Of a DNA stretch of 64,000 nt, positions 3,753-47,881 are shown in pieces. Both the position numbers and the translations under genes were made by a program. The notes beneath the pieces are model-generated. The model worked only from the letters and a program-made list of their open reading frames with translations. It was not told the origin of the DNA and searched no databases. The stretch is from a virus: positions 186,001 to 250,000 of the IMG/VR virus record IMGVR_UViG_3300023179_000009; one strand, given 5' to 3'. Each line of letters starts with the position of its first letter. Position 1 is the stretch's first letter.

Positions 3753-3774
3753 CCCACCCCCTAAAGGGAGTGGG
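3753..3774 (-). other. Right-end hairpin of element 1 / likely 3' end of omega RNA scaffold
   Basis: Near-palindrome CCCACcCCCT-aa-AGGGaGTGGG overlapping the TnpB stop codon. The same structure sits at the same place in element 2 (46,642-46,666). By analogy with TnpB systems the guide RNA would come from the tnpB 3' region through this hairpin, with the guide taken from DNA just beyond it (below about 3,740, reading leftward on the minus strand). Confidence 0.55.
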
Positions 3775-4918
3775 CTTGTAAATCACCGGAGCCTTCTCCA
3801 CAGTGTCTACTATAAGCCAATTGACACATGGCTCGTTCCTCAACAGCTTGCCGTTGAAGAAGCGACCGGAGTGCTACATTTTTAGCACCGACACGGTCTG
3901 CGTTGTCCGAGAACTTGCAGGCAACGCACCGAAAAACCAGTCCATTTCGGTTGGACTTATCAACACAACCACAACAAGGACAACCCCTGCTCGTATTTTT
4001 TGCAGGAACATTGTCAACGGTTATCCCAACAGAATTAGCCTTGTATGTGACAAAAAACTCAAGCATAAAGTAGGGCCACCTGTTATTCCTTGATCTCTGC
4101 TTGTGGTGTTGTTTTTTGTTTTCCTTGGTAAATTTCTGTTTGAAGCCGGTCAACTTTTCCAATGTTATGGTTCTTGCATCGTTCAAACTTGCAAAATTAA
4201 CCAATTGCTTACTTGCAATGTGTAATATATTCTGTGTTACGGCTTTTTCTCTTCCGCTTAACCGCTTTAGTAAACGGCGTGCTGAACGAGTGCCAACACT
4301 GGCTACTTTTGCTCTTGTTTGTCTGATGCAAAGTCTTTTGTGATTTAGTTCACCTCCCTTGATGTAAAGTGTCTTGTTTGAATTAGGGTCTATTGCAACG
4401 AGTATGTTTTTCTGTCCACGGTCAACCCCAATTATTCCGCCTTCAACTCTTGGTTCAACTTGGTCAATTTCAACTGTCAAGCACAACCACCATTGACCTT
4501 TACTGAATTTCAACTTTGAGTCACTCCATTTGCCTTTAGGAAGCGGTCGTGACTTGTAGGAAACCAGTTCGCCCCAGATGCTCATTCCCTTTTTTCTGAT
4601 GTTGAAATCCCGTTTCCAGCAAAGTGGCAAACTTGTCTTGTTGTATGTCGCAAGGCTCCAATTCTTGTTGCTTTTCATGCTTCTGTATGTTCCAACCACA
4701 TGGCGGAACAAGGAGCAAGTCAATTGGCTGGGAAGATTGAATTTTTCTCTCACCATGCCGTAGAACTCTTTGCTCAATTGACCCGGAGTGTTGACTTTCT
4801 TGCGAGAATAGATTATCTTAGACAGCCAGTTTGCGGCATCCTTGTAGGATTCGGCGTATTGGCTGAACTTGGAATGCTCGCTTGTTATTTTGAGTTTGTA
4901 TGTTCGCAAAACTTTCAT
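3761..4918 (-). CDS. tnpB: TnpB family RNA-guided endonuclease
   Basis: 385 residues, typical TnpB length. RuvC residues are present: D166 in IIGVDRG, E254 in TITLEKLTG, D341 in DNADRVGAKNVA. The zinc ribbon is complete (CPCC at 313-316, CVAC at 331-334). TnpB is a DNA nuclease guided by an RNA from the transposon right end and favours transposon persistence. The catalytic set suggests an active enzyme. ATG at 4918; a 9-bp-stem palindrome lies immediately upstream where a ribosome site would be. More diverged from element 2's protein than the ends are. Confidence 0.93.
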   Translation of the reverse strand: MKVLRTYKLKITSEHSKFSQYAESYKDAANWLSKIIYSRKKVNTPGQLSKEFYGMVREKFNLPSQLTCSLFRHVVGTYRSMKSNKNWSLATYNKTSLPLCWKRDFNIRKKGMSIWGELVSYKSRPLPKGKWSDSKLKFSKGQWWLCLTVEIDQVEPRVEGGIIGVDRGQKNILVAIDPNSNKTLYIKGGELNHKRLCIRQTRAKVASVGTRSARRLLKRLSGREKAVTQNILHIASKQLVNFASLNDARTITLEKLTGFKQKFTKENKKQHHKQRSRNNRWPYFMLEFFVTYKANSVGITVDNVPAKNTSRGCPCCGCVDKSNRNGLVFRCVACKFSDNADRVGAKNVALRSLLQRQAVEERAMCQLAYSRHCGEGSGDLQAHSL

Positions 4919-4941
4919 ACAAACTTATATAGTAAGTTTGT
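4919..4941 (-). promoter_or_regulatory. Inverted repeat abutting the tnpB start
   Basis: Perfect 9-bp stem (4919-4927 / 4933-4941) with a 5-base loop directly 5' of the tnpB ATG. It could be an operator or an RNA hairpin that hides the start and keeps TnpB expression low. No ribosome site is visible between it and the ATG. Confidence 0.4.
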
Positions 4942-4964
4942 GACGAAAATTATTAGGGAGGTAA

Positions 4965-5008
4965 CGGCAATTCCTCCCAGCCCCTAAAGGGACTGGGTTT
5001 CCTTGCCG
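4965..5008 (-). other. Left-end imperfect palindrome of element 1
   Basis: CGGCAA (4965-4970) pairs with TTGCCG (5003-5008), enclosing CCCAG/CTGGG and CCCCTAAAGGG. The GGC[AG]ATTC[CA]TCCC ... CCCTAAAG core recurs at 48,121-48,147 in element 2. Such sub-terminal palindromes are the substrates of TnpA in IS605 elements, which would have to act in trans here. Confidence 0.55.
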
Positions 5009-19336: not shown

Positions 19337-19575
19337 AATCATATAGTTTGATAATTTTAGTTTTTTTGTCTATTTTTTTTGGATGTTCTAAATCAGATGT
19401 TGACTTTCAAGATGTAACATCCAACTATAAACTTCCCCCAGAGTTGAAAGGTGCTAAAATTTTTGTTCTAGGTGGCGGCTGGTCTGCGACAAAGCCTGTG
19501 TGGATTGTTGTTACTCCCAAAAACTCTGATTTTGAAGCAATAACAGAAGATAATACGGCGGAGATCGTTCCTTGA
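19333..19575 (+). CDS. Small lipoprotein (80 aa)
   Basis: 80 residues. Lys2, hydrophobic core SLIILVFLSIFFG and Cys18 form a lipoprotein signal (FFGC). Mature part of about 60 residues. Overlaps neighbours by ATGA and TTGA. Second lipoprotein in the array after 6,639. Confidence 0.6.
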   Translation: MKSYSLIILVFLSIFFGCSKSDVDFQDVTSNYKLPPELKGAKIFVLGGGWSATKPVWIVVTPKNSDFEAITEDNTAEIVP

Positions 19576-20336
19576 AAATCATAGCCGAAATTATAGGTGG
19601 TAGTCACCTTTATGGTCTCGACACTCCTTCTTCGGATGTGGATAAACGTGGTGTTTTTTTAAATACGGAATTTGACAAAATTTTGGGGTTGAATCGATTT
19701 GATGTTTTGAAGCAATCCTCCGAAGATTCACTTTATTTTGAACTTGTTCATTATCTGAGAGGCTTAAAAAAAACAAACACGCAAATGCTTGAAATTTTGT
19801 TTGCTGATGAAGATGATTTTATTCTCATCACAGATGAGTTCAAAGAAATTCGCAGTCACAAGTACAATTTAATAAATAGCGAAAGTTTCTATAAAAGTTT
19901 ATTGGGATATATTGAAAACGAAAAAAGATTAGCAAACGGAGAAAGAACAGGCAGCTTGGGAAGCAAAAGAAAAAACACAATAGAATCTTTTGGTTTTAGC
20001 CCTAAAAACTTTTCTCATTTATTTAGACTTTCTTTTTGTGGTCAAACTTTTTTTGAAACAGGTGTTTATCCGGTTAATATAAGTAAAATCGACAAACAAT
20101 TTCGTGATCTTATTTTTTCCATCAAAACAGAACCCGAGAAATATAATAAAGATTATTTGAACATGATGTGCGACAAATCACTTCAAAAATTGTCTATTTC
20201 TTTTAAAAATAGGAAAGAAAATTTTGAATTCGATGTTGATTTAGCTAATGAATTTTGTAGAAAATTTTATCTTCCTTTTTTGGGAAAAAACACCAATCTG
20301 GCTATTGACAAAAAAAATAAAATAATTAATATATAG
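19572..20336 (+). CDS. RlaP-like predicted nucleotidyltransferase
   Basis: 254 residues from TTG 19572 (TTGA overlap). Pol-beta-type nucleotidyltransferase signature near the start: GGSHLYGLDTPSSDVDKRGVF (G-S-x-x-x-G ... S-D-x-D). This is the family named RlaP, often linked to RNA ligase/repair gene sets. A third carboxylate is probably in the 'FELVHYLRGL' strand. The structured RNA at 20,340 starts immediately after its stop and the RNA's promoter lies in its last codons, so a functional link to RNA metabolism is possible but unproven. Confidence 0.75.
   Translation: MKIIAEIIGGSHLYGLDTPSSDVDKRGVFLNTEFDKILGLNRFDVLKQSSEDSLYFELVHYLRGLKKTNTQMLEILFADEDDFILITDEFKEIRSHKYNLINSESFYKSLLGYIENEKRLANGERTGSLGSKRKNTIESFGFSPKNFSHLFRLSFCGQTFFETGVYPVNISKIDKQFRDLIFSIKTEPEKYNKDYLNMMCDKSLQKLSISFKNRKENFEFDVDLANEFCRKFYLPFLGKNTNLAIDKKNKIINI
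20305..20332 (+). promoter_or_regulatory. Promoter for the structured RNA
   Basis: TTGACA (20,305-20,310), 16-bp spacer, TAATAT (20,327-20,332). Predicted start about 20,339-20,341, at the foot of the first hairpin. Same 16-bp spacing as the promoter-like boxes at 56,781, 57,147 and 60,542. The boxes lie in the end of the nucleotidyltransferase gene. Confidence 0.5.
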
Positions 20337-20339
20337 ATT

Positions 20340-20493
20340 TATTGCCAGTAAGGGTTAGTTGTTGTGTCGCCCCTTGCTGGTTGTTAGATGTTGTCAACTT
20401 ACCGGCAAAGTTGACCGCTGTTTAGCCGGTTAACAGCGTTACGTCCCCCACCGGGTGGAGAACCTCGTCCCTTCTCCCCGGTGGGGTTTTTTG
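20340..20493 (+). ncRNA. Structured non-coding RNA with kissing-loop potential
   Basis: GC-rich 150-base segment without an open frame in AT-rich surroundings. P1: 20,345-20,354 pairs with 20,371-20,380 (10 bp, one G-U). P2: 20,393-20,400 with 20,408-20,415 (8 bp perfect), loop ACCGGCA. P3: 20,416-20,422 with 20,432-20,438 (7 bp perfect), loop TAGCCGGTT. P2 and P3 abut and their loops contain ACCGGC and GCCGGT, exact 6-base complements. P4 is an intrinsic terminator. It is not a tRNA, and it matches no RNA class I can name. Could be a regulatory RNA, a decoy, or a leader of the next gene, though the terminator favours an independent RNA. Confidence 0.75.
20446..20492 (+). terminator. Rho-independent terminator
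   Basis: CCCCACCGG (20,446-20,454) pairs with CCGGTGGGG (20,478-20,486); inside it GGAGAA (20,457-20,462) pairs with TTCTCC (20,472-20,477). Six T follow at 20,487-20,492. A textbook terminator ending the structured RNA and the long plus-strand array. Confidence 0.9.
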
Positions 20494-20506
20494 TTATAAT
20501 ATTTCT

Positions 20507-21448
20507 ATGAGTTGGCAAAAAAAAATAAAATTATTGCGATCTGGCGATTATGAAAGTGGTTGGCCAGAACATAATGATATTGTAGTAGGAACTGGGAATA
20601 ATATTTTTTCTTTGAGTCCGAATTACAACAAACCTGTTTGGAATGGGCAAAAAGAAAATATTACATTATTGATTGATGCTCTTTTTGGCGATGGCGACAC
20701 CATACAGTTTCTTAGATTTGTTGAAAATGCTAAAAAATTAGTTAAAAAAGTAATTTTGCGTTGTAATGAAGAATTTAAAATTTTGTTTCAAGATTTAGAG
20801 GTAGTTGATAAGCAAAAGCAACCTCCTGATTTCGATAAAGTTATTCACATGATGGCTTTACCTAAAGTTTTAAATATTAAAAAAAATGAAATAAAAGGTA
20901 TGCCATATTTGCTTCCAAACTCTTCCGTTACTTTAAACCCGGCAATTCAAGTTTTACCTTTGTTAAAATTTCCAAAAGTAGGAGTCTGCTGGTCCGGTAA
21001 TCCATTTAATGCTCTTGATTATAAAAGATCAATACCAGTTAACTTGCTAGACATTTTGAATATTCATGAAAATTTTAAATTTTTTAGTTTATGTAGAATT
21101 TTTGATCCTCCAAAAAATTGTTTCGATTATCGAAATGCAATGACAGACTGGAACCAAACAGCACACCTAGTTAAAAGTATGGATTTGGTAATCACTGTGG
21201 ACACATCGATAGCTCATCTAGCGGGGTCTATGGGTGTGAAGACTTGGCTTTTGTCGGACCCTGAAGTTGGCGAATGGAGGTGGGGAGATGATCAAAAAAC
21301 AATTTGGTACGATAGTTTACAAATACTTAGAAAGAAAGACGACTGGCAAACTTTACTCTTGGAGGTGAGCGAAGATATAAAAATATTTTTAGAAGATTAT
21401 CAAAAAAATAAAAAAAGAATGCGTTTGCAAACCATCAGCCGTTCTTGA
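20507..21448 (+). CDS. GT9-like glycosyltransferase (heptosyltransferase family)
   Basis: 313 residues. The C-terminal half is characteristic: VGVCWSGNPFNALDYKRSIP, then LVITVDTSIAHLAGSMGVKTWLL, the nucleotide-sugar site of GT9/ADP-heptose transferases (often found in TPR-GT9 proteins). GT-B fold, cytosolic. Donor and acceptor unknown. First gene after the terminator; TATAAT at 20,494-20,499 is too near the ATG to judge. Confidence 0.75.
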   Translation: MSWQKKIKLLRSGDYESGWPEHNDIVVGTGNNIFSLSPNYNKPVWNGQKENITLLIDALFGDGDTIQFLRFVENAKKLVKKVILRCNEEFKILFQDLEVVDKQKQPPDFDKVIHMMALPKVLNIKKNEIKGMPYLLPNSSVTLNPAIQVLPLLKFPKVGVCWSGNPFNALDYKRSIPVNLLDILNIHENFKFFSLCRIFDPPKNCFDYRNAMTDWNQTAHLVKSMDLVITVDTSIAHLAGSMGVKTWLLSDPEVGEWRWGDDQKTIWYDSLQILRKKDDWQTLLLEVSEDIKIFLEDYQKNKKRMRLQTISRS

Positions 21449-46639: not shown

Positions 46640-47881
46640 CTACCCACCCGCTAAAGACGGGTGGGTTTCCGCTCCAACCAACAGCCCACCATAAGCGGGT
46701 CTTACATCAGGACAAGCGGCTAACTCGGTAGTTCCTACCGTTCTGTATTTTACTCCTTCGTCAAGTATATTCAAGGCTGCGTTTTGGTCACGGTCAATAT
46801 TTTCAAAACAGTTGAAACAAAACCATTCCCTATCGGTTGGTTTTAGTTCTTTGTTTTGAAAACCACAATTATTGCAAAGTTGACTTGATGGAAAGTATCT
46901 GTCAACCTTGATTAATTCACGACCATACCACTTCGCCTTGTAGGTCAATTTGTCAACAAAAGAGCGAAACCCACAATCGGCAATGTCTTTATGTCTGTTG
47001 CGTTCTTGATATCGTTTTTCTTCTCTTTTGTCGGGACTAACCTTTTTAAGCATGGATTCTACGCTCAAGTCTTCAACAATTATCACTTGGTTTTCGTTGA
47101 TGATGCGTCGTGTTAACTTGTGTAGAAAATCTTCACGCTTGTTGGTTATCTTCAAATGTAGTTTAGCCAACCTTCGGTTGGCTTTCTTCCTGCCATTACT
47201 TCCTTTTTCGCTTCGGCTCACACTTTTACTCAAAAGTTTAAGTCTTTGTTCGTACTGTTTCATGGGTCTTGGATTTTGTATCTTGTTGCCATTACTGTCC
47301 ACTATATTTTTTACATTAAGGTCAAATGCAATTACTTCCGACGAAGTCGGCAAACTAGAAATTTCTTTTTGAACAGTGACTGAAACGAAGCATTGTCCAA
47401 CTTTGTTTTTGCTTATTGTTGCAAACTTGATTTCGCCACTAAATTCACGGTCTTGAACAAAGTTGATTCCCGACAAGAACTTGGGGAAACAGAGTTTCTT
47501 GTCTTTGATTTTGATGTTCTGCTTTACTCGGAATGATTGTTTGTCATTTCTACGCTTGAATTTTGGGAAACCTTTTTTGCCCTTATTCTTTTGTTTGATC
47601 TTACGAAAAAAGTTGTCATACGCTGTTTGCAAACATTCAACTGCATATTGCAAACTTTGACTTCCTACTTCTTTCAACCAAGGATGGTCTTTCTTTAGAT
47701 TCGGAAGTTCTTTTTCGTTGTCTTTTCTACTTATTGACTTTTTACTGTTTTTGTATTCTTGTATTCGCTTATACAAAAAATGGTTGTACACGAACCTCCC
47801 GCAACCGAAGTGCTTATTCAGCAACGATTCTTGTTGTTTGGTTGGATACAACCTAAATTTGTAGGAATACAGATGGTTCAA
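46640..47881 (-). CDS. tnpB: TnpB family RNA-guided endonuclease
   Basis: 413 residues. RuvC residues D187 (IAFDLNV), E270 (VIIVEDLSVE), D363/D365 (NIDRDQNAALNI); zinc ribbon C336, C339, C355, C358. Helix-turn-helix N-terminus YKFRLYPTKQQ typical of canonical TnpB. Start TTG 47881 shares TTGA with the RHH stop, so expression depends on it. C-terminal THPSLAGG is encoded by the right-end hairpin, the place where omega RNA is normally made. Confidence 0.93.
   Translation of the reverse strand: MNHLYSYKFRLYPTKQQESLLNKHFGCGRFVYNHFLYKRIQEYKNSKKSISRKDNEKELPNLKKDHPWLKEVGSQSLQYAVECLQTAYDNFFRKIKQKNKGKKGFPKFKRRNDKQSFRVKQNIKIKDKKLCFPKFLSGINFVQDREFSGEIKFATISKNKVGQCFVSVTVQKEISSLPTSSEVIAFDLNVKNIVDSNGNKIQNPRPMKQYEQRLKLLSKSVSRSEKGSNGRKKANRRLAKLHLKITNKREDFLHKLTRRIINENQVIIVEDLSVESMLKKVSPDKREEKRYQERNRHKDIADCGFRSFVDKLTYKAKWYGRELIKVDRYFPSSQLCNNCGFQNKELKPTDREWFCFNCFENIDRDQNAALNILDEGVKYRTVGTTELAACPDVRPAYGGLLVGAETHPSLAGG
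46642..46666 (-). other. Right-end hairpin of element 2
   Basis: ACCCACCCG (46,642-46,650) pairs perfectly with CGGGTGGGT (46,658-46,666), loop CTAAAGA. Overlaps the tnpB stop. Candidate 3' end of the omega RNA scaffold; the guide would be the 15-20 bases below about 46,632. Confidence 0.6.

Follow-up and report, generated by a model that had tools for sequence, protein, structure and literature searches.

A candidate free-standing small RNA with abutting, loop-complementary hairpins in a huge phage genome

The 458,813-base genome of a huge phage very probably encodes a real, independently transcribed small RNA (sRNA) without a described family, judging from the sequence of the locus and that of one homologue. 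The element appears to be a free-standing phage sRNA of about 150 nt, with a host-type promoter, a three-hairpin body (P1, P2 and P3) and its own terminator. The original prediction of an independent structured phage-encoded RNA is supported by its own promoter and terminator, by a fold beyond chance and by the lack of a match to any known family. The small RNAs of huge phages have received little attention. Annotation based on tRNA and Rfam searches overlooks this one, which is compact and for which the comparison with its homologue gives clear evidence of selection. Phage-encoded sRNAs are a kind of element already known; what is unusual here is the tandem pair of hairpins with complementary loops.

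Genomic context and predicted architecture of the sRNA

The window, that is, the whole 64,000-nucleotide stretch that was analysed, corresponds to G000:C1:186001-250000 of the phage record, and positions below refer to the window unless the record is named. The genome has a GC content of 35%, carries 12 tRNA genes and encodes a large terminase of the Terminase_6N type, with T4-like relatives. At about 49% GC, the sRNA segment is indeed GC-rich within AT-rich DNA. It lies between a gene for an RlaP-family nucleotidyltransferase (NTase), the identity of which had been proposed from reading and is confirmed by its Pfam match, and a gene for a stand-alone GT9-like glycosyltransferase (Table 1). 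As had been noticed, the segment begins at the very end of the NTase gene.

Table 1. Features of the sRNA locus (window positions)
Feature	Position	Strand	Remarks
RlaP-family nucleotidyltransferase gene (upstream)	19572..20336	+	PF10127, E 8e-11; 254 aa; last codons overlap the promoter
Sigma-70-type promoter	20305..20332	+	TTGACA 20305-20310, N16, TAATAT 20327-20332
P1 hairpin	20344..20381	+	11 bp (20344-20354/20371-20381), 16-nt loop, two G-U pairs
P1-P2 linker	20382..20392	+	UGUUAGAUGUU; 11 nt, invariant in both genomes
P2 hairpin	20393..20415	+	8 bp (20393-20400/20408-20415), 7-nt loop ACCGGCA
P3 hairpin	20416..20438	+	7 bp (20416-20422/20432-20438), 9-nt loop UAGCCGGUU; 0 nt from P2
Intrinsic terminator	20446..20492	+	15-bp GC-rich stem with bulge (hairpin 20446-20486), then U6
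Stand-alone GT9-like glycosyltransferase gene (downstream)	20507..21448	+	PF01075, E 5e-4, below the curated cut-off

The predicted promoter is present and scores 10/12 against the consensus, a level at which 1.8 matches are expected by chance in the scanned region; transcription would start at about 20337-20342. The abutting P2 and P3 hairpins have the stem lengths originally given, and P1 lies where it was placed, its helix being 11 bp long with two G-U pairs, rather than 10 bp, when the terminal G-U pair is counted. Mean pair probabilities for P1 are 0.98 in the window and 0.88 in the homologue described below; the corresponding values are 0.85 and 0.84 for P2, the sequence of which is the same in both genomes, and 0.82 in both for P3, in which the sole change, U to C at the first loop base, falls outside the complementary hexamer. 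The GC-rich terminator that had been proposed is likewise there, a hairpin followed by six T, with a fold of -25.3 kcal/mol and a mean pair probability of 0.99. A simple terminator scan missed this hairpin, presumably on account of its bulged stem and 9-nt loop.

A three-way junction closed by an additional helix, P4 (GAUGU/ACGUC), was considered but is not put forward as a firm feature: it forms in the best fold of the window but is not favoured in the homologue. P4 has a pair probability of 0.49 in the former and 0.03 in the latter, in which the 5' end replaces it as partner of the linker. In the folding models, the P1-P2 linker may pair either with the 5' end or, forming P4, with 20441-20445.

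Folding, coding potential and relation to known RNA families

The sRNA folds with a minimum free energy of -61.9 kcal/mol, compared to a mean of -43.8 kcal/mol (sd 3.64) for 200 dinucleotide shuffles, that is, a z score of -4.97, and the homologous RNA reaches -5.46. That the segment lacks a reading frame is true for practical purposes. Its longest ORF on the plus strand has 27 aa and a TTG start; in the aligned homologue its stop is lost and the remaining differences are amino-acid changes, so that the small ORFs look non-coding.

None of the Rfam 15 covariance models reaches its gathering score in the window, in agreement with the statement that the shape belongs to no known RNA class, and the best low-threshold matches (E 0.4-1) are at chance level, far below the cut-offs. 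The suggestion of a tRNA-like decoy finds no support: there is no ARAGORN or Rfam tRNA match in the window and no CCA end, and both tools detect tRNAs elsewhere in the same genome. A type III toxin-antitoxin system, weighed from general knowledge, was also dismissed, given the glycosyltransferase-like nature of the downstream gene and the lack of tandem repeats in the RNA.

Conservation in a related phage

Protein and DNA searches recovered one homologue, at positions 4830-4987 (L001) of the 177-kb phage contig 3300042197_004429. The order of genes around it is the same (RlaP-type NTase, RNA, glycosyltransferase), which identifies it as the same locus in a related phage. The two RNAs are identical at 151 of 158 positions (95.6%). 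The promoter and the terminator are conserved as a unit, with 31/31 identical positions in the promoter block (20305-20335) and 46/47 in the terminator (20447-20493), where the single change sits in the bulge, whereas the flanks are much less conserved: DNA identity is 75.9% in the coding part of the NTase and 82.2% in the glycosyltransferase gene. Fourfold-degenerate sites, which serve as the best approximation to neutral evolution, are 50% and 60.5% identical, respectively. The probability of at least 151 identities in 158 positions is about 2e-25 for a neutral identity of 60% and 2e-5 for one of 85%.

The boundary of the conserved unit is sharp, identity jumping from 45.8% (20281-20304) to 100% exactly at TTGACA. 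The NTase proteins of the two phages are 78% identical but their C-termini are not conserved: the homologous NTase, of 241 aa, ends at a TGA inside TTGACA, and the overlap is read in another frame. That the promoter is identical despite this frame change indicates that it has been kept as a DNA signal rather than as codons. In our view, this frame-independent conservation, observed in a comparison of two genomes, argues more strongly than any other observation for a functional unit.

Within the RNA, all seven differences leave the 46 predicted pairs intact, as do only 4.3% of random sets of seven; six of them fall at unpaired positions and one converts an A-U pair of P1 to G-U. The stems and the loop complementarity are kept in the homologue, down to the same loop hexamers, as the original prediction would have it, in a sample of one homologue. 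Covariation is almost nil for the helices in these two sequences. Taken as a comparison of sequences, this pattern supports strong purifying selection on promoter, RNA and terminator, independent of the flanking genes, although similar identity could also result if one phage had recently acquired the whole cassette from the other.

The element is single-copy in the genome in a scan with the model R1. A blastn search against phages returned no homologue beyond the 177-kb contig, and one against plasmids gave only chance matches of 20-29 nt. Word patterns for the loop-loop pair, P1, P3 and the linker were run against viral_contigs and genome_contigs, and the candidates failed the fold or covariance model. 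Model R1 found no further carrier among 33 records (the phage itself, the homologue and 31 terminase relatives), many of the relatives being fragments in which absence carries little weight, and no match in the 595-kb LR756511 or in 15 glycosyltransferase relatives. Run unfiltered on two relatives that carry the nearby 720-aa gene, it gave a best E of 0.085, which is at chance level.

Complementarity of the P2 and P3 loops

The complementarity between the two loops had been described as exact over 6 nt, and it is: ACCGGC in the P2 loop (20401-20406) is the perfect complement of GCCGGT in the P3 loop (20425-20430). For random loops of 7 and 9 nt, a 6-nt match has a probability of about 0.001, and the loop-loop duplex energy is about -10 to -11.6 kcal/mol. 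A genome-wide scan of 1.19 Mb with loose rules found similar near-abutting hairpin pairs at about three other places, none of which joins an 8-bp stem directly to a 7-bp one. Since looser pairs do occur elsewhere, the loop complementarity alone is suggestive rather than decisive. Furthermore, the palindromic CCGG common to both loops is also present in both arms of the terminator, and the complementarity could be a by-product of this repeated motif. The shared word CCTCGTCC was tried as a signature of the element and abandoned, being widespread in coding DNA.

The sequence permits the kissing interaction originally proposed, but a kiss within one molecule conflicts with the zero-length linker. 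By an A-form estimate, the 8+6+7 stacked base pairs would span about 60 Angstrom, and the stems are joined by a single phosphodiester, which makes a full 6-bp intramolecular kiss sterically implausible on this model. Covariation speaks neither for nor against kissing, as both genomes carry identical loop hexamers. On the same modelling grounds, it seems likelier that the loops pair between two molecules, or within a nested fold that competes with the tandem hairpins, than that they kiss intramolecularly. The nested fold, in which the two loops pair as an ordinary stem, lies 1.2 kcal/mol above the best fold of the domain and has an ensemble weight of about 0.1 in the window and 0.03 in the homologue.

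Possible function and alternative explanations

We suggest that the sRNA is made by host RNA polymerase and acts in trans as a stable folded RNA. The P2 and P3 loops and the 11-nt P1-P2 linker, which are exposed and invariant, would pair with other RNA or bind a protein. Given that no nucleotide separates P2 from P3, loop pairing would most plausibly join two RNA molecules, the P2 loop of one pairing head-to-tail with the P3 loop of another, so that a dimer or multimer could be the active form; alternatively, the near-isoenergetic nested fold might serve as a switch. As a whole, this explanation is in our judgement about evenly poised between right and wrong. Its likelier part is the trans-acting RNA; the dimer is a guess, and a doubtful one. 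Narrower still, and unlikely, is the proposal that the RNA self-assembles into dimers or closed rings through the 6-bp kiss of hairpins that would be unable to kiss in cis, and would represent a compact multimerising RNA outside pRNA, OLE, GOLLD and ROOL. With regard to the sponge activity that had been suggested, the start regions of the phage genes were scanned for targets, and none was convincing: exact shared and complementary words are not above their expected frequency, and the best start-region duplexes lie at doubtful starts or do not exceed shuffles.

The position of the sRNA, with the terminator T-run 14 nt before the ATG of the glycosyltransferase gene and in the same orientation in both genomes, raises the alternative of a cis-acting leader or attenuator that senses some signal, its terminator deciding on read-through into the gene at 20507. 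Folding of partial transcripts, however, shows no strong antiterminator for the 5' arm of the terminator, and the gene has a TATAAT 6 nt upstream of its ATG and no Shine-Dalgarno sequence, as if it possessed a leaderless promoter of its own. Moreover, none of 14 distant glycosyltransferase relatives on other contigs has a structured leader (in nearly all of them the homologous stretch starts inside a longer open frame), and neither these relatives nor their records match R1. We therefore disfavour a leader for the downstream gene and regard it as improbable. The two abutting hairpins between a promoter and a strong terminator also recall the put sites of phage HK022, where two hairpins with next to no linker follow closely on the promoter, and could in principle form a cis antitermination RNA that binds RNA polymerase. 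Here, however, P1 and the 11-nt linker separate the promoter from the hairpin pair, and the element occurs once in the genome; such a role seems very unlikely. The least probable reading is that the repeats are protein-binding DNA palindromes, that is, operators, rather than RNA. The arms of P2 and P3 do form perfect inverted repeats, spaced by 7 and 9 bp, but P1 contains two G-U pairs and the A-U to G-U change in the homologue maintains the RNA helix while breaking the DNA palindrome, and the promoter and the GC stem with its T-run point to transcription of the plus strand.

A link to the neighbouring enzymes, with the RNA as substrate, guide or decoy for the RlaP nucleotidyltransferase or for other nearby RNA-repair enzymes, is prompted by the RlaP gene directly upstream and by a protein with a poly(A)-polymerase head and HD domain encoded less than 3 kb away. 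In jumbo phages, RlaP and further repair enzymes have been proposed to mend RNAs that host defences have cut (PMC7824862). The connection is one of adjacency only, however, and the RNA has no tRNA-like features; furthermore, the NTase C-terminus varies (241 versus 254 aa) and the protein is 78% identical between the phages while the RNA barely changes. We accordingly give this role little credence, and a trans-acting free-standing sRNA is the reading that we prefer.

Comparison with known phage and viral RNAs

Phage intergenic sRNAs are short and non-coding, lie between genes and have a host-type promoter and an intrinsic terminator. Those with their own promoter and terminator have been reviewed (PMC12197685), and the present element resembles them in both signals, in being non-coding and in its location between genes, but differs in its setting in a 459-kb huge phage, in its abutting hairpins with complementary loops and in the lack of any sequence or Rfam match. 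The pRNA of phage phi29 is a small phage RNA in which two complementary hairpin loops mediate head-to-tail assembly between molecules (PMC7357161). Two complementary hairpin loops are likewise encoded in both genomes studied here, as known from sequence; in contrast to pRNA, there is no Rfam match, the helix that would close a three-way junction is not conserved, and the large terminase of the phage is of the Terminase_6N type with T4-like relatives, unlike the phi29 packaging motor.

GOLLD and ROOL, RNAs of phages or prophages with as yet unknown functions, associate through kissing loops between molecules; both are large, many GOLLD RNAs exceeding 800 nt, and are often found near tRNA islands (PMC12286853). 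The sRNA described here is about 150 nt long and matches neither Rfam model, and its self-assembly is only putative. In the SL1-SL2 element of MoMuLV, the loops of neighbouring hairpins pair crosswise in the dimer (SL1-SL2' and SL2-SL1'; PMC7357161). That element is part of a retroviral genome and forms 2-bp kisses, whereas 6 bp are possible in the stand-alone phage RNA. Phi29 pRNA, MoMuLV SL1-SL2, GOLLD and ROOL are thus analogies and do not imply membership. Should the phage RNA multimerise, it would join the few natural RNAs known to assemble by kissing loops.

Other structured RNAs and features of the genome

Several further elements were noted in the phage record. At G000:C1:122834-123390 (L027 2834-3390), a match to tmRNA (RF00023, 82.7 bits) is overlapped at its 3' end by a group I intron match (RF00028), which would fit an intron inserted in a phage tmRNA gene; ARAGORN did not call a tmRNA at this location. 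Two additional group I intron matches lie at record positions 118256-118481 and 318868-319123, the latter being followed within 1 kb by a tRNA-Leu gene. Another structured intergenic segment ending in a terminator is located at record positions 278780-278980 and has no blastn match in the homologous contig. At about 335000-359000 of the record, an island of 50-62% GC with short ORFs stands out from the 35% GC genome, possibly reflecting a foreign insertion or an assembly problem.

Within the window, a TnpB-like ORF on the minus strand (3761-4918) matches the Cas12f1-like TNB domain (PF07282, E 4e-15), and a second TnpB-like ORF, judged by reading alone, is found at 46640-47881, also on the minus strand. 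TATAAT precedes the start codons of several genes by 6-12 nt (for example at 20495-20507, 38464 and 43861) and is more frequent at this distance than farther upstream, a hint that some transcripts have no leader or a very short one. Finally, the region at about 29000-62988 contains a long series of genes resembling those for glycosyltransferases, methyltransferases and sugar modification, as judged from reading the ORFs, which suggests extensive glycan modification by the phage.
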